A stretch of 64,000 nucleotides of DNA from Streptomyces sp. XD-27 (GTDB lineage: Bacteria > Actinomycetota > Actinomycetes > Streptomycetales > Streptomycetaceae), in the NCBI RefSeq assembly GCF_030553055.1, contig NZ_CP130713.1, positions 1,674,001-1,738,000 on the forward strand, written 5' to 3'. How positions within the stretch are numbered: the stretch's first letter is position 1; each line of letters opens with the position of its first letter. Below the pieces are notes generated by a model that saw only the letters and a program-made list of their open reading frames with translations, was not told the origin of the DNA and did no database searches. A program made the translations under genes and the position numbers. This document shows positions 48,426 through 54,465 of this stretch, piece after piece.

Positions 48426-48524
48426 CGTCTACTGCGGCGGACAGCGCCGGGGCTGACGCCACTCATCGGGAACACCGCGGCGGGTCCGGTGTCCGGCGCC
48501 GGGGAGTCCGAGCTTGCCCGGCCG

Positions 48525-48547
48525 TTGTCAGTGGTCGGCCCTACGGT
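48525..48547 (+). promoter_or_regulatory. PafBC-type DNA-damage promoter of the WGR gene
   Basis: TTGTCAGTG, 8 bases, TACGGT, an exact match to TTGTCAGTG-N8-TAnnnT. Transcription should begin near 48554, giving a leader of about 43 bases with GGGAGGGG before the GTG at 48597. Confidence 0.75.
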
Positions 48548-48596
48548 GTTGATCAGTGGGAGTCACCCACCACCGACACCTTGGGAGGGGCTTGCC

Positions 48597-50033
48597 GTGT
48601 CCGGATCGAAGACGTATCTGGAGCTGTCGCAAGAGGGCAGCGGTGCGCACAAGTTCTACGAAGTGACCGTGGACGGCGTCACCGTGTCGGTGCGTTACGG
48701 CCGGATCGGCGCGGCGGGGCAGGTGCAGACCTCCACGTTCCCGACCGCCGCGAGGGCGCGGGCCGCGGCCGACAAGAAGGTCAGCGAGAAGGTGCGCAAG
48801 GGCTACGCCCCGGCTGTCCAGGGGCGGCGCGCGGCCCGCCCGGTCACCCGCCGCCAGGTCTCCTCGGCCCCGTCGACCGCGCGGGCCGTCGCGCCGGTGC
48901 TGTGGCGCTTCCGCACCGGCGCCGCCGCCTTCGGCATCCACATCAGCGAGGACCGCTGCTGGGTCGGCAACCAGGCCGGGGACGTGTACGCGGTCGGCCA
49001 CGACGGCGAGGTGCTCGCCCGCTACCAGCTGCCCGACGGGGTGAAGTGCCTGGTCGCCGACGACTTCTGGATCTACGCGGGCTGCGACGACGGAACGGTC
49101 TACGACCTGTCCTCCAAACTGCCCTTCGCCGCCTACGAGATCGCCACCGACGTCGACATCTTCTGGCTGGACATCCACGAAGGCATCCTCAACGTCGCCG
49201 ACCGCAAGGGCGGACTGACGGTCATCGACCACGAGGACGAGTTCCAGTGGTCGCGCGGCAGCACGGGCGAGCACGCCTGGATGGTGCGTCGCGACGACCG
49301 AGCCGTCTACCACGGCCACCAGCGGGGCGTCACGGCCTACGCCTGCGACGGCACCGCCGAACTGTGGCACACCCCGACGTCCGGTGCGGTGCTGTTCGGC
49401 TGGCAGGAGGCCGACGCGGTGTACGCCGGCACCGACCGCCGCGTCGTCCAGCGCCTGTCCAAGGCGACCGGCCGGATCGAGGCCACGTACCGCTGCGACA
49501 CCGTCGTCTACTCCTGCGCCACCGCGCCCGGCGGCGGTTACGTCTTCGCGGGCGACTCCGCCTCGTCCGTGTACTGCTTCGCCGAGGACGGCACCCGGCT
49601 GTGGAAGCTCGGCACCGGCGGCGGCTCGGCGCTGTCCATGCAGTATCTGGACGAGAAGCTCTACGTCGTCACCACCGACGGCTCGCTGGTCTGCATCGAC
49701 GCGAGCGACGCGGCGATCGCGGCCGCGCAGGGCGGCACCCTCCCCACAGCCCTGGACGTCAAGTCGGCCGCGGGTCTGCCCACGTACGCCCCGGCCACCA
49801 CGGTCCAGACCGTGACCGCGGCGTCCGCGCCGGGGAGCGGCGTGATCATCGAATGCGTGCAGGACGGCAGCCGGCTGCGGATGCGCGTCATCACCGACGG
49901 CTACGACCCGCGATGGAACGTCCAGTTCCCCCGCCGGATACGCGAGGCGGGCGCCCGTTACGTGGTCGACGCCCTGCATCCGGCTTCCGGTGGCTTCTAC
50001 CGGGTCCGCGGCGAGATCCGCCGTCTGCTGTAG
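48597..50033 (+). CDS. WGR domain protein with beta-propeller
   Basis: A 478-residue cytoplasmic protein from the GTG at 48597. Residues about 5-75 form a WGR domain (KTYLELSQEGSGAHKFYEV, VSVRYGRIGAAGQ, KKVSEKVRKGY), a fold that binds nucleic acid in PARP-type proteins. After a basic linker, residues about 95-400 form a PQQ/WD-like beta-propeller with repeats such as GNQAGDVYAVGHDGEVLARY, AGTDRRVVQRLSKATGRIEATY and AGDSASSVYCFAEDGTRLWKL. A short C-terminal domain ends in GFYRVRGEIRRLL. The damage-type promoter and the WGR domain together suggest a role at damaged nucleic acid (inference). Confidence 0.85.
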   Translation: MSGSKTYLELSQEGSGAHKFYEVTVDGVTVSVRYGRIGAAGQVQTSTFPTAARARAAADKKVSEKVRKGYAPAVQGRRAARPVTRRQVSSAPSTARAVAPVLWRFRTGAAAFGIHISEDRCWVGNQAGDVYAVGHDGEVLARYQLPDGVKCLVADDFWIYAGCDDGTVYDLSSKLPFAAYEIATDVDIFWLDIHEGILNVADRKGGLTVIDHEDEFQWSRGSTGEHAWMVRRDDRAVYHGHQRGVTAYACDGTAELWHTPTSGAVLFGWQEADAVYAGTDRRVVQRLSKATGRIEATYRCDTVVYSCATAPGGGYVFAGDSASSVYCFAEDGTRLWKLGTGGGSALSMQYLDEKLYVVTTDGSLVCIDASDAAIAAAQGGTLPTALDVKSAAGLPTYAPATTVQTVTAASAPGSGVIIECVQDGSRLRMRVITDGYDPRWNVQFPRRIREAGARYVVDALHPASGGFYRVRGEIRRLL

Positions 50034-50043
50034 GAAGCGGAGC

Positions 50044-50074
50044 GGGCCCGGGGGCGTAGCCTGCCCCCGGGCCC
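50044..50074. terminator. Bidirectional hairpin after the WGR gene
   Basis: A perfect 12-base-pair stem GGGCCCGGGGGC / GCCCCCGGGCCC around a 7-base loop, 10 bases after the WGR stop. It also lies downstream of the minus-strand non-coding RNA. Confidence 0.85.
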
Positions 50075-50110
50075 CGTGATGCCGCCCAGTTCGCACGCCG
50101 GCGTCACTGC

Positions 50111-50227
50111 GGGCACAGGTCAGTCATCATGTCGTCGTGTTCTGCCTTTGAACTACCGCGCATCGGAAAGGAATGACAGCTGCGCGGGCCGGACTTGAAC
50201 CGGCATCCGACGACCAAGCCTGGGCCC
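50111..50227 (-). ncRNA. tRNA-mimicking RNA, probably a YrlA-type bacterial Y RNA
   Basis: Minus-strand order is: outer helix 5' strand GGGCCCAGG (50227-50219); GTCGTCG (50214-50208); T-arm GCCGG-TTCAAGT-CCGGC (50204-50188); acceptor 3' strand CCGCGCA (50187-50181); a 17-18-base loop; acceptor 5' strand TGCGCGG (50162-50156); TA; D-arm GTTC-AAAGGCA-GAAC (50153-50139); CGACGAC (50137-50131); an 11-base bulge; and CCTGTGCCC (50119-50111). Acceptor 7/7, T 5/5, D 4/4 and inner helix 7/7 pair perfectly, and the outer helix 8/9. This is a circularly permuted tRNA whose anticodon stem is replaced by a long closing stem, the design of YrlA Y RNAs that bind Ro60 and mimic tRNA. A true permuted tRNA is less likely, since no U33 or 7-base anticodon loop can be formed. 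No Ro60/TROVE gene is in the window. Confidence 0.7.
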
Positions 50228-50392
50228 GGTCTGTCCGGCGATCGGCGGCGAATGCTGAGTCTGGAGCGAGAGTCTGAGATTGATCACGGTCTGGTGTTCG
50301 CCACCAGGCCGCACCGTCACGACAAGCTTCAGCTTCAGCTTGCGCTCCTCGCGCACCCCGGCCGCGCACAGGCGGTCGGGGAGTTCATGAGA

Positions 50393-51124
50393 CTACCCGA
50401 AGAGGTAGCCGAAGACCGCCTCGCCGACGCGCTCGTCGCTGACCTCCACGGCGTTCGCCTCCTCGCGGGCGAACTTGACCGCCTGCTGGAGCTTCTCCAC
50501 ACGGTCGAGAAGCTCGTTGACACGGCGGGCGGGCAGGGCGCCGGAGAACTTGACCGTGGTCCAGTAGCCGACCGGGATGTCCTCGTAATAGACCTCGACC
50601 TGCGCCGGATGCTTCTCGGTGGCCTCCGCCTTGACGTGGTTGCGCGGCACCTTCTTCGTACGGACCGTGCGGACCGGGTCCGTCTTCCAGGCGTCCGTCG
50701 ACGGGTCGAGGGACCAGGACTCGGCGGCGTCGAGGATCGGCAGCTTGCGGAGGAAGGTTCCCAGGTCGCTCAGCTGCTTCTCCAGGAAGAGCAGATAGGA
50801 GACCGGGACGTCGCGCAGCAGTGCGCGGCCCTCGACGGTGACATCGGCGCGGGCCGTGCAGTTGGCCCAGTCCTTGGTGGCGGTGACGTCGAAGAGGCGG
50901 GTCAGGGTGGCCGCCGTCTCACGCAGCACGTCCTCCGCCTTGACCTGCACGCGGGTGGACTCGGGCGGGAGTTGCTCGCCCTCCTCGTCCTTGGGCTGGT
51001 ACGTACGGGATATACCGGCGAGCAAGGCGGGCTTCTGGAGCCCGTGGTGAGCCGCCGCCAGGTCCTGCTGCGCCTTGGCCTTGACGCCCTTCTCGACCGC
51101 GATGATCTGGTTCAGTTTCGCCAC
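50393..51124 (-). CDS. Conserved protein of unknown function upstream of the Y-like RNA
   Basis: A 243-residue soluble protein (MAKLNQIIAVEKGVKAKAQQDLAAAHHGLQKPALLAGISRTYQPKDEEGEQLPPES at the N-terminus). It is rich in charged residues, with helical stretches at both ends (VNELLDRVEKLQQAVKFAREEANAVEVSDERVGEAVFGYLFG). I recall close homologues across Streptomyces but no assigned function. It is transcribed towards the tRNA-mimicking RNA, which starts about 165 bases after its stop. The gap contains three AGCTTC repeats (50327-50341) and no terminator I can see, so the two could share a transcript. Confidence 0.8.
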   Translation of the reverse strand: MAKLNQIIAVEKGVKAKAQQDLAAAHHGLQKPALLAGISRTYQPKDEEGEQLPPESTRVQVKAEDVLRETAATLTRLFDVTATKDWANCTARADVTVEGRALLRDVPVSYLLFLEKQLSDLGTFLRKLPILDAAESWSLDPSTDAWKTDPVRTVRTKKVPRNHVKAEATEKHPAQVEVYYEDIPVGYWTTVKFSGALPARRVNELLDRVEKLQQAVKFAREEANAVEVSDERVGEAVFGYLFG

Positions 51125-51189
51125 CTCGCCACAGTAACAGCGCGTGGCACAGCTCCTCGAACACTTATCCCGCGGGCGCCGGGCCTCCG

Positions 51190-51511
51190 TCAGCCGTGCG
51201 GATAGCGGTCCCGGGGGAAGAACGAGTCGCTGTGCGGGTCGCGCTCGTCCCTGGTGTCACTGAACGGATGGAATTCCGCGGCCAGATCGCCAGGGCCGCT
51301 TCGGCGACCCAACCGCCGCCCAGGGCTGGAGGCGGAGCCAGCCGGAGCGCACCGGGTCGTGCGACGGTCCGGCGGGCGGCGGCGCGGAGTGGTTCTGCGT
51401 CTCCAGCCAGCGCAGATAGGAGTACCGGACGAGGGCGGTCTCCGCTCCGCCGATGCCCTTGCCCTCGTCCGCTTCGTCGTCGGCTCGTTCATCGGCTCAT
51501 TCGGCCCTCGG
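51190..51511 (-). pseudogene. Damaged small gene of unknown function
   Basis: Two minus-strand frames each look like part of one protein. One (roughly 51511 to a stop at 51257) reads ADERADDEADEGKGIGG and ETALVRYSYLRWLETQNHS but has no start codon and a stop just upstream. The other gives the C-terminus AEFHPFSDTRDERDPHSDSF before a stop at 51190. Removing one C near 51502 would give MSDERADDEAD, and a second shift would be needed near 51270. Either sequencing errors or a decayed gene. The rest of the 546-base stretch 51125-51670 shows nothing else. Confidence 0.4.
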
Positions 51512-51670: not shown

Positions 51671-51982
51671 ATGTTGCGCATGGTGCGTACGGGCGATGAG
51701 CCGGTGCACGCCCGCAGCGCCCTGCGGTTGCGCTGCGGACTGGCCGTGTGGGGGTGCCTGTGGGCCCTGGCGGGAACGGTGCTGTTCGCCGCCGCGGGCA
51801 GGACCGGTTGGGCTGTCGCGTGCGGGGTGCTGGTCGCGGTCACCGCCACGGACCTGATCGTCGTCATACGGCACATCCGGCAGGGCCCGCACTACCAGCC
51901 GGGCCGTGATGTGCCGCCGTACGAGCCGGTCGACGACCGCGGAGGCGACCAGCGGGCGCGGGAGCGCAGGCCACGGCCTTAG
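51671..51982 (+). CDS. DUF6343-type small membrane protein
   Basis: A 103-residue protein with the RTGDEPVHARSALRLR motif of a Streptomyces-specific family and two membrane helices (GLAVWGCLWALAGTVLFAAAG and GWAVACGVLVAVTATDLIVVI), followed by a polar tail. GGGAGATG precedes the ATG at 51671; an ATG three codons later is possible. Its stop overlaps the end of the TIR-STAND gene by 4 bases, tail to tail. Function unknown. Confidence 0.75.
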   Translation: MLRMVRTGDEPVHARSALRLRCGLAVWGCLWALAGTVLFAAAGRTGWAVACGVLVAVTATDLIVVIRHIRQGPHYQPGRDVPPYEPVDDRGGDQRARERRPRP

Positions 51983-54465
51983 CCCGCGGGCGCCAGCCCG
52001 AAGTCGGCCCCGGAGATCGCGGACAGCTCGCCCGTGATCCGGAGCAGCGGGGTCCGCAGCTCGGCCAGGGCGGTGCGCAGCGCCGCCGCCTGAGCCCATG
52101 CCTGCTCGTGCTGGATCGGGTTGCCGTCCACGGGGCGCGCCGCCTCGTGCGCCGCCAGCCGCGGATGCCACTCGGTGAGGAAGGGCCGCAGGATCCGGTT
52201 GAGCAGGTCGTAGGCGATGGCGTGCACGGTACGGTCGCCGCCCGCGGCGGCCCCGCCAGCTCCGCTGGCCGCGGCGTCCGGCGCGGCCGGCGGTGCCAGG
52301 CTGATGCTGTACTGCCGCAGCGTGCTCCGGGTGAACTCGAACATCGCGTGCAGCGACGCCAGCGCCTCACGGAGGCTGCCTCCCTGCGGCGCCAGTTCCT
52401 GGACCCCGATCCGGGTGGCGAGCTCCACCTGGATGTCGAAGGCGGCCATGCGCTCCAGCTCGCTGGGCACACTCTCGGGTTGCGGCGCGGGCATCTGCGG
52501 CTCCCTCGTGCCGGGGCGGGGGCGGGCTCCGATGCCGCCCAGACTACTTCCGTGCGGCGGTCCGTAGGGGCTGCGGAGCGCCCTGATGACGGCGTGCCGC
52601 AGCCGTTCGGCGCGGGCCGGCTCGGGATCGTGCCGCAGCCAGGCGTGCGCGATCACCGGGTGCACGCACCAGGAACGCGCGGCCGGTACGAGCAGGTTCC
52701 TGGCGCGCAGGGCGGCGACCCCCGCGTCCACACGCCGTGCGGCGGCGACCGGCGGCATCCCGTCGGCGAGCGCGAGCGCACGCGTCGCCTCGTCCCGGAC
52801 CAGGGGCAGCGGCGAGATCGCGGCGGCGAGGCGCAGCACGTCCAGTGCGCAGGGGCCGGCGGGCACCGCGTCCCGCACCAGCTCGGAGGTCACCTCGACC
52901 GGGTGCCCCGTCGGCAGGACGCTGCCGCGTGCCAGCGAGTCCAGGAGCGGGCTGCCCGGGGCGTGGAACCGGTCGTGGAGGACGTGGTAGCCGTCGGCGG
53001 TGGCCGAACCGAGCAGGTCAAGTGCGAGCGGGTGGCCGTCGACGGCCGTACACAACCGGCGCGCGGCGGCGCACTCGTGTTCCCCGCGCGGCGGTTCCGC
53101 GCGGGTGAGCAGCGCGTAGGACTCCTCATCCGTCAGCGGACCGAGCTCGACGGGTGCCGCCAGGGAGTCGTAGCGGCGGCTGCGGGTGGTGACCAGGGTA
53201 CGACCGAGCGGGTGCGGGGCCGTCAGGGCCGCGAACCGCCGGGCGGTGAGGCCGTCGTGGTCGGGAAGGCCGTCGACGACCCAGAGGAACGGCAGCCCCG
53301 AGCGTGCGAAGTGGGTGTGCAGGTGGGCGGTGAGAGTCTCGGCGGGGCCGTCGTCGGGGAGGCCGAGCGCGCGCACGACGGCGCGCAGAGCCCGCTCGTA
53401 GGCCGGGAAGCGGCTGCCTGCGGCACCCGTCCGCCCGTCCTGCCGGTAGCCGCCGGCCTGCCCGGGGTGGTTGTCCTGCCCGGGGTGCCCTGGCCCGTGC
53501 GCCCCGGCCGCCGGGCGCCCGGCGGCGCTCTCAGGCTCGCACGGGGTCGGGCCGGGGCGGCGGTGGCCGGCGACGGGTGTCGAGCCGGTGCCGTACTCCG
53601 CCGCGGCGCCATACGTCTCGTCCGCGTCGTACGCGAGGCCTCCGTCCGCGCCATACGCAGGGTCCCCCGCGTCATACGCGGAGCCCCTGCCCGCGTCGTA
53701 CGCAAGGCCCCTGCCGTACGGAGTGCGCTCGACGTCCGCGTCCGCCTCCCGCAGCGCCAGCCAGTGGATCCCGCCTGGGTACGCCGCCGCGAACCGCGTC
53801 GCGTACTCCCGCGCCAGCAGCGTCTTGCCGATCCCCGCCATGCCCCGGATCTGCACCGGTCCGGCGCTCGTCTGTCCGGTGGTCAGCGGCGCCGCGTGCG
53901 AGTGCAGCGCGCTGTGCACCTGCCACAGCTGCGGCAGGCGCCCGGTGAAGGCCACGGCGGGCGGAGGAGGCGGGCCCGGCAGCCAGCGCGGCACCGTCGT
54001 GGCCATGGGCAGCTGCCCCATCGGTGTGCCGATCGCCGCGACATGCGCCCGTACGTCCGCCACGAGCGCGTCGAGCGCCGCGTCGGAGGTCGGCAGCGGC
54101 CAGTGCTTGGCGTCGCGCAGCTCGACGGGGTGGATGTGGTGCGCGGACGGCTCGGGGTTGACGACCATCACGCGGCGGCGCGGGTCGCCCTCGCGCAGCC
54201 CGGCAAGATGGGCGGCGGTCAGTTCCCACTGGCAGGCGCGCCGTTCCGGGTAGGCGGCGGAGTAGACCGCCAGCAGCGCCTTGGAACGGGCGAGGCCGTC
54301 GCGGATCGCCTCGCTGATGCCCGTGAAACCAGCGACGGTCGCCTCGTCGACGAAGACCCGCAGGCCCGCCGCGACCAGCCGCGCGCGCAGTGGACGGACC
54401 CGTTCGGCGTCACCGCGGCTGTAGCTGAGGAACACGTCCCACACGCGGGGCTCCCGTCCCTCCAC
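51979..54465 (-). CDS. TIR-NB-ARC (STAND) protein, putative immune NTPase
   Basis: An 828-residue protein. Residues about 8-130 are a TIR domain (VFLSYSRGDAERVRPLRARL, FVDEATVAGFTGISEAI, and the NADase-type glutamate E81 in ACQWELTAAH). Residues about 170-600 form an NB-ARC module: Walker A GMAGIGKT at 208-215, Walker B FLWVVDGL, sensor RTLVTTRSRRYD and the GxP-type VDGHPLALDLLG. Between Walker A and B is a low-complexity insert with Y-[DG]-A repeats. The last 155 residues are clearly homologous to the product of the divergent gene at 54548. Bacterial TIR-STAND proteins are often phage sensors that deplete NAD on activation; here that is inference. Confidence 0.88.
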   Translation of the reverse strand: MEGREPRVWDVFLSYSRGDAERVRPLRARLVAAGLRVFVDEATVAGFTGISEAIRDGLARSKALLAVYSAAYPERRACQWELTAAHLAGLREGDPRRRVMVVNPEPSAHHIHPVELRDAKHWPLPTSDAALDALVADVRAHVAAIGTPMGQLPMATTVPRWLPGPPPPPAVAFTGRLPQLWQVHSALHSHAAPLTTGQTSAGPVQIRGMAGIGKTLLAREYATRFAAAYPGGIHWLALREADADVERTPYGRGLAYDAGRGSAYDAGDPAYGADGGLAYDADETYGAAAEYGTGSTPVAGHRRPGPTPCEPESAAGRPAAGAHGPGHPGQDNHPGQAGGYRQDGRTGAAGSRFPAYERALRAVVRALGLPDDGPAETLTAHLHTHFARSGLPFLWVVDGLPDHDGLTARRFAALTAPHPLGRTLVTTRSRRYDSLAAPVELGPLTDEESYALLTRAEPPRGEHECAAARRLCTAVDGHPLALDLLGSATADGYHVLHDRFHAPGSPLLDSLARGSVLPTGHPVEVTSELVRDAVPAGPCALDVLRLAAAISPLPLVRDEATRALALADGMPPVAAARRVDAGVAALRARNLLVPAARSWCVHPVIAHAWLRHDPEPARAERLRHAVIRALRSPYGPPHGSSLGGIGARPRPGTREPQMPAPQPESVPSELERMAAFDIQVELATRIGVQELAPQGGSLREALASLHAMFEFTRSTLRQYSISLAPPAAPDAAASGAGGAAAGGDRTVHAIAYDLLNRILRPFLTEWHPRLAAHEAARPVDGNPIQHEQAWAQAAALRTALAELRTPLLRITGELSAISGADFGLAPAG

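Follow-up and report, generated by a model that had tools for sequence, protein, structure and literature searches.

A stretch of 64,000 nucleotides (nt) of the Streptomyces sp. XD-27 genome (contig NZ_CP130713.1, positions 1,674,001 to 1,738,000; here called the window, numbered from its first letter) carries on the minus strand, at 50111-50227, a sequence that a preliminary description had taken for a circularly permuted transfer RNA (tRNA)-like RNA, probably a bacterial Y RNA. The question raised by this locus was what kind of RNA it encodes and with which protein this RNA works. Comparison with related loci revealed that the permuted head, designated M2, is one unit of a larger element (about 50044-50345) lying directly 3′ of a gene for a DUF7873 protein (PF25283), the candidate partner of the RNA. 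The structure at 50111-50227 was thus real, but these coordinates covered only part of the element, and instead of a stand-alone RNA of about 115 nt awaiting a Ro60-type partner, the second unit of an element of about 300 nt behind DUF7873 was found. Our verdict, reached from sequence comparison, is that the locus appears to belong to a new family of Y-RNA-like RNAs, many of them with two heads, and that the candidate partner, likewise new, is a protein that has no clear fold match.

Fold of the RNA and its linkage to DUF7873

The acceptor, T, D and inner-stem helices and the second, outer helix (P3) were present on the minus strand as described, with T and D stems of 5 and 4 bp (Table 1), and they covaried in relatives. 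In shuffled DNA with roughly preserved dinucleotides, a descriptor of this layout matched 5 times in 994,000 bases, and this rate, together with the helix covariation, confirmed that the tRNA-like fold is beyond chance. For the alignment across the genus that had been proposed as a check, 30 same-genus loci of the 50111-50227 region were picked by blastn rather than by structure, and the stems proved to be conserved with compensatory changes. RNAalifold gave 35 pairs, 19 of them with two-sided changes; 97.8% of the cells were paired vs 85.6% in shuffles, and the covariation score was 0.433 vs 0.201, a value reached by none of 500 shuffles. Further pair types were no more numerous than in the shuffles (103 of 500), and since the structure was the alignment's own consensus, the slide control was biased in its favour. 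The T, acceptor and D helices of M2 had 100% of their cells paired in all 30 rows, P1 had 99.2% (four pairs counted) and P2 had 99.4%. ARAGORN found no tRNA in the window, and Rfam gave no match at gathering score at 50111-50227, in agreement with the earlier remark that tRNA finders miss such RNAs.

The 243-aa product of the adjoining gene scored 404.1 bits against PF25283, vs a Pfam gathering score of 27. Its AlphaFold model had a mean predicted local distance difference test score of 90.6 and a predicted template modelling score of 0.65; fold comparison, with viral and cellular predicted-structure libraries outside its scope, gave no confident relative, and the best hit of a profile search against sequences of solved structures (E 0.059) was not used. 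No match was found in PHROGs, NCBIfam or an anti-phage defence library, and neither DUF7873 nor PF25283 occurred in the papers listed by one text search that included both names. One protein search gave at least 6846 homologues, a family that gains here a concrete candidate partner, open to test.

Linkage was examined in 100 genomes, including that of XD-27. PF25283 was found in 44 of them, its own genome among these, and the RNA lay beside DUF7873 in all 44 (42 by covariance model, 2 by descriptor). The model, R1, represents M2; 30 of the 42 matching genomes contributed their loci to it and so match by construction; the remaining 12 were independent of it, 11 of them being from a different family. 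Searched with stricter filters at the cost of weak matches, R1 gave 43 matches of at least 99 bits in the 42 genomes, all DUF7873-positive, and by coordinates all 43 were located just 3′ of DUF7873 on the same strand, one genome (G062) having two DUF7873 genes and two RNAs. The 56 DUF7873-negative genomes had no strong R1 match, and weak ones of at most 45.8 bits occurred in many of them. In the two positive genomes lacking a strong match (G010 and G075), one or more heads were detected by descriptor on fetched stretches, one contig ending there. A blastn search with the RNA stretch gave matches in 44 of the 100 genomes; those in G006 and G088, which have no DUF7873, were short scraps, and the DUF7873-positive G069 and G071 were missed. 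In every one of the 30 aligned same-genus loci, the RNA was preceded by a frame that had the C-terminus of DUF7873 at its end.

Weak R1 matches to model positions 27-127, seen in many same-genus genomes, were set aside as a class; the own-genome copy, the one member inspected, was a pair of tandem tRNA-Asn genes (G000:C1:2259346-2259439, L264) that set off the descriptor as well as R1 (38.3 bits) and that can mislead genome scans of this kind. Those to positions 48-105 (at most 45.8 bits) included places about 1.2 kb from TROVE genes, which were read as Y-like RNAs and left uncounted.

All-against-all blastp of the frames of 80 genome loci revealed, among the matches listed, no frame common to more than 14 other loci, the most widely shared being of Streptomyces type; a frame about 2.9 kb downstream had matches in 7 loci of different phyla. 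The idea of a further operon neighbour common to the loci was therefore rejected. The position of the RNA 3′ of the DUF7873 stop codon and in the same orientation, in the 44 positive genomes, with no sigma-70-like promoter in 50000-51350 (other promoter types being outside the scan), would also suit a cis-acting 3′ untranslated element that controls the stability or level of the DUF7873 mRNA instead of acting in trans. We consider this rather unlikely, since the size, the tRNA-like heads and the cross-phylum conservation exceed the needs of a stability element, and since in 9 of 12 phage records DUF7873 is followed by 409-696 nt in which no gene is annotated (one of these nine, a Microcoleus phage, had no head that could be found in this stretch).

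Distribution and the two-headed form

In an even sample of the phylum, DUF7873 was found in 7 of 396 genomes, all of the same genus, and it was also present in 73 of 50,697 phage records and in 4 of 72,556 plasmid records, as well as in viral contigs and in genomes from outside this phylum (one survey was confined to the relatives of its query and covered 80 of 113 of them). As assigned from record titles, the loci belonged to Actinomycetota, Myxococcota, Chloroflexota, Armatimonadota, Planctomycetota and Cyanobacteria, and the phage hosts were Arthrobacter, Gordonia, Rhodococcus, Klebsiella, Vibrio, Rhizobium and Pseudanabaena. In phages the DUF7873-RNA unit was often located among tRNA genes. 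An element found on the chromosomes of Streptomyces and other bacteria is thereby linked with the tRNA clusters that large phages carry. Of 14 control genomes, that of Deinobacterium chartae alone was DUF7873-positive, and it was also the sole TROVE-positive control.

A set of 142 distinct DUF7873 loci was compiled, each having 700 nt or more of sequence 3′ of the gene; loci that agreed in their first 300 nt downstream were counted once, and L001-L065 were excluded. Within 700 nt downstream, 61 loci had two or more heads, 62 had one and 19 had none, so that 123 had at least one. The head density was 1.80 per kb downstream of DUF7873, vs 0.020 per kb upstream of it, 0.028 at greater distance downstream, 0.012 on the antisense strand and 0.005 in shuffles. 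When the 19 headless loci were scanned again under relaxed settings (loops up to 260 nt, 900-nt range), heads were detected in 6; the 13 still headless in that range included the locus of the Microcoleus phage, a number of loci with partial matches to DUF7873 and all 4 Herpetosiphon loci (L156, L165, L170 and L173), which have DUF7873 genes and no detected tRNA-like module, and in two of the 13 (L151 and L220) a head-like stretch was visible by eye. It was also noticed that the twin-RNA region of Klebsiella phage vB_KpM_FBKp24 (L121, 5013-5097, plus strand) carries an annotated suppressor tRNA (TTA), called tRNA-Stop by ARAGORN; this annotation is probably a misreading.

Upstream of M2, a first permuted head, M1, was detected by descriptor in 23 of the 30 same-genus loci; the 7 without it included the window, which has a plain hairpin in place of M1 and hence one head only. 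M1 has a class-II-type D arm (three pairs, then a non-pair) and mostly A as the discriminator, and M2 has a class-I D arm and mostly U. The order was class-II then class-I in 49 of 63 two-head loci, a total differing from the above 61 by slightly different descriptor settings. Around M1, a conserved 5′ motif pairs with a conserved linker (helices H1a and H1b), and M2 is borne by helices P1, P2 and P3.

The whole structure was assessed in an alignment of 30 diverse twin RNAs, out of 77 loci passing a two-head filter, using a structure of 91 pairs that we named; as the rows were chosen by the T/acceptor/D/inner-stem descriptor, the values for the head helices and inner stems are biased. In total, 84.5% of the cells were paired vs 67.8% in shuffles, the covariation score was 0.469 vs 0.180 in shuffles and at most 0.146 when slid, and two-sided changes were seen in 76 of the 91 pairs. 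Among the helices outside the selection, the cells were paired at 81.9% in H1a, 67.6% in H1b, 74.6% in P1, 97.3% in five pairs of P2 and 92.9% in its sixth, 84.2% in P3, where all 9 pairs had two-sided changes, and 76.4% in the 3′ hairpin. This covariation ties both halves of each head together and contradicts the notion that a permuted tRNA is merely mimicked by tRNA genes in tandem or in decay, or by scars of integration. Although tandem tRNA-Asn genes can trigger model and descriptor, as noted above, and many of the copies in phages have tRNA genes around them, ARAGORN called no tRNA and heads were far denser downstream than upstream of DUF7873, which makes such an artefact highly improbable.

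Some caveats apply to the structure. The fold energy of 50111-50227 was unremarkable (z -1.63, 12 of 200 shuffles equally good), as was that of the longer RNA at 50081-50345 (z -1.57, 16 of 200); the minimum-energy fold had the inner-stem region in a different register; and the inner stems were the weak points of the wide alignment (63.5% and 60.3% of cells paired), that of M2, the latter, being its weakest helix. Fold energy, being too weak, was dropped as proof of structure. Because it was unremarkable for the base composition and because of the different register, the case for the RNA, and for the inner stem in particular, rests on comparison.

Relation to Y RNAs, tRNAs and tmRNA

Y RNAs typically have a single tRNA-like domain per RNA. 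The YrlA-type layout proposed earlier was borne out, in that a permuted domain of T, acceptor and D arms sits on a basal stem and YrlA was the fitting, and best, Rfam family, albeit below threshold: under permissive settings RF02553 matched 50107-50228 at 29.1 bits vs a gathering score of 69 (E 2.9e-4 for 551 bases), so that the covariance model proposed as a check did find the locus but not at gathering score. The assignment to bacterial Y RNAs stood for the layout and the conserved stems, whereas the place of M2 as the second unit of a longer element did not fit it. The DUF7873 RNA further differs from YrlA in apparently having tandem units in many members, conserved core motifs and a 3′ hairpin, and in being adjoined by DUF7873 rather than TROVE.

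Among 13 other DUF7873 loci, 6 matched YrlA at 29.3-38.7 bits and the rest had no match at E 0.05. Three of 15 TROVE loci gave YrlA-like matches at 36.7-58.4 bits, also below gathering; hence a low YrlA score alone cannot exclude membership, and the RF02553 cut-off discriminates poorly here. The permuted modules near the TROVE genes of these relatives (L107, L109 and L110) are probably true Y RNAs, and the Y-like modules close to TROVE were at loci separate from that of the DUF7873 RNA.

The absence of a TROVE gene from the window, already remarked, extended to the own genome (no PF05731 match, 96.92% complete). TROVE was present in 51 of the 100 genomes; 31 of the 44 DUF7873-positive genomes had it and 13 did not, namely the own genome and 12 of the 43 others. 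Within the genus no association was found, TROVE occurring in 21 of 32 DUF7873-positive vs 17 of 29 DUF7873-negative genomes (Fisher p 0.61). Because TROVE is absent here, is independent of DUF7873 in the genus and has its modules at separate loci, the partner of the RNA is most likely not Ro60, which was rejected as the leading candidate. That the RNA is a true YrlA Y RNA working with Ro60/Rsr encoded elsewhere is on these grounds very unlikely, despite its layout, its best Rfam family, the frequency of TROVE among the genomes and the sub-gathering scores of the TROVE-locus matches themselves.

A real tRNA was rejected because ARAGORN was negative and because the anticodon-type stem continues into H1/P3, that is, runs on into the basal stem and leaves no anticodon loop. 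The acceptor loops nevertheless resembled tRNA ends in part of the family, their first bases being NCCA in 31 of 101 heads of class I and in 34 of 85 of class II (chance 1 in 64); the discriminator was U in 66 of 101 class-I and A in 65 of 85 class-II heads, and it was followed by C in 91 of the class-I and 67 of the class-II heads. This NCCA excess, far above chance, suggests that the loops descend from the 3′ ends of tRNAs or are processed as these are. Transcripts of circularly permuted tRNA genes are reported to be circularised and cut into standard tRNAs (PMC10085705), and like these genes the DUF7873 RNA has its 3′ half before its 5′ half with the join at the acceptor end, but it has no anticodon loop and its acceptor loops have a median of 8 nt. 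By analogy with two-piece transfer-messenger RNA (tmRNA), the acceptor loops might be cut to give a three-piece RNA with two aminoacylatable -CCA ends, for which the base preferences above would speak. We regard this product as improbable, since some loops are only 4-5 nt long and 70 of 101 class-I and 51 of 85 class-II heads lack NCCA, as does the window, whose loop has no CCA; moreover, the stems were best joined by 2-6 nt in most listed rows (the script tried 2-6 and 10-19 nt), and M1 therefore seems to lack a long class-II variable arm.

tmRNA is partnered by a small protein, SmpB. Two-piece tmRNA (RF04321/RF01849) resembles the DUF7873 RNA in being tRNA-like and permuted, with CCA-type ends in part of the DUF7873 family; the DUF7873 RNA differs in having two heads and no tmRNA match at gathering, either in the window or at the scanned DUF7873-linked heads. 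As no match appeared at the locus under permissive settings either, tmRNA was rejected; sub-threshold scraps at two other loci scored 25.8 and 18.9 bits vs 47. Two viral contigs (L084 and L085, 7522-7840, plus strand) had a match to permuted or alphaproteobacterial-type tmRNA (RF04321, RF01849) about 1.8 kb 3′ of DUF7873, apart from the heads. GOLLD and ROOL are large structured phage RNAs near tRNA genes, a situation shared by the DUF7873 RNA; at gathering score, Rfam found nothing besides tRNA and tmRNA in 28 DUF7873 viral loci.

It is likely that the locus consists of a DUF7873 gene and a downstream two-unit Y-RNA-like RNA that together form a dedicated ribonucleoprotein with tRNA-like heads. 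A dedicated RNA-protein pair is suggested by the tight pairing of gene and RNA, the lack of another widely shared neighbour and the preservation of both across phyla and phages, and we infer a DUF7873-RNA ribonucleoprotein from it. Since gene and RNA are found together in bacteria of diverse kinds and in large phages, the pair has the look of an undescribed machine of RNA and protein, not of an ordinary Y RNA bound by Ro60. The full RNA would comprise two Y-RNA-like units in tandem on the same strand directly 3′ of DUF7873, the first a basal stem of 5′ motif and linker bearing M1 with its class-II, tRNA-Leu-like D arm, the second a long basal stem (P1-P2-P3) bearing M2 with its class-I D arm, with the 3′ hairpin closing the RNA. 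It would be transcribed with, or just after, DUF7873.

In Y RNAs, as described in one review, the basal stem tethers Rsr and the tRNA-like domain binds PNPase (PMC8394870); Y RNAs are also reported in phages and discussed there together with Ro60-related proteins (PMC7765460, PMC12282133), and it has been suggested that a tRNA-like domain of this kind may act as a competitor of tRNAs for a nuclease that cuts them (PMC7790460). By analogy, DUF7873 or its complex may hold the conserved basal stems, and the tRNA-like heads may dock onto tRNA-handling enzymes, the role being possibly like that of Ro60-Y RNA or SmpB-tmRNA in tRNA or RNA quality control and, in phages, in sustaining translation. A bolder form of this proposal, to which we give little credence, would be a new ribonucleoprotein class shared with or spread by large phages, in which the Leu-like and class-I heads are cut into a three-piece RNA with its two CCA ends charged or recognised together, and DUF7873 presents them to the translation or tRNA-repair machinery. 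To judge from the present family, permuted tRNA mimicry extends beyond Ro60. The complex, should it exist, would be a second, independent solution to the task of Y RNAs, and what tRNA mimics tether would become directly testable in bacterial hosts and phages.

Parts of the element in the window and neighbouring genes

Table 1. Features of the DUF7873 locus (window positions)
Feature	Position	Strand	Sequence or pairing	Basis
DUF7873 gene (PF25283, 243 aa), candidate protein partner	50393..51124	-		Pfam 404.1 bits, E 3e-121
G+C-rich hairpin between DUF7873 stop and 5′ motif	50356..50383	-	CTCCCCGACCGCC..GGCCGGGG	sequence, minimum-energy fold
Conserved 5′ motif	50317..50345	-	GCGCAAGCTGAAGCTG..	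alignments
Helix H1a, 5′ strand, basal	50330-50339	-	GCTGAAGCTG; 8/10 pairs in window	inspection
Plain hairpin at M1 position	50287..50311	-	CGGCCTGGTG-GCGAA-CACCAGACCG	alignments, fold
Conserved linker	50254..50283	-	TCAATCTCAGACTCTCGCTCCAGACTCAGC	alignments, pair counts
Helix H1a, 3′ strand, within linker	50254-50263	-	CAGACTCAGC	
Helix P1, 5′ strand	50241..50248	-	with 50082-50089; 6/8 pairs in window	inspection
Helix P2, 5′ strand	50235..50240	-	CGCCGG with CCGGCG 50096-50101	
Helix P3 (outer helix)	50219-50227 with 50111-50119	-	GGGCCCAGG with CCTGTGCCC; 8/9 pairs	
Head M2, whole (inner stem, T arm, acceptor with 18-nt loop, D arm)	50131..50214	-		covariation, descriptor match
M2 inner stem	50208-50214 with 50131-50137	-	GTCGTCG with CGACGAC; 7/7 pairs	
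M2 T arm	50188-50204	-	GCCGG-TTCAAGT-CCGGC	
M2 acceptor	50181-50187 with 50156-50162	-	CCGCGCA with TGCGCGG; 7/7 pairs	
M2 acceptor-closing loop, 18 nt	50163-50180	-		
M2 D arm	50139-50153	-	GTTC-AAAGGCA-GAAC	
Helix P2, 3′ strand	50096..50101	-		
Helix P1, 3′ strand	50082..50089	-		
3′ hairpin	50044..50074	-	GGGCCCGGGGGC-AGGCTAC-GCCCCCGGGCCC	sequence, fold

The counterpart of the G+C-rich hairpin was variable in sequence in the displayed relatives. The 3′ hairpin is the probable end of the RNA; it is terminator-like without a T run, a terminator scan found none there, and its counterparts in relatives have loops such as TGGATAC and AGGCTAC. On the opposite strand, a sub-threshold match to the Streptomyces small RNA Scr4115 (49988-50077, plus strand, 33.3 bits vs a gathering score of 58) overlaps this hairpin. 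The convergent neighbour at 48489-50033 (plus strand), which ends about 10 bp from the hairpin, encodes a WGR domain and a PQQ-type beta-propeller and gave weak matches only in the defence library. Also near the unit, 51979-54465 (minus strand) encodes a TIR and NB-ARC-type protein with a sub-cut-off match to the TPR family of the FxSxx-COOH system.
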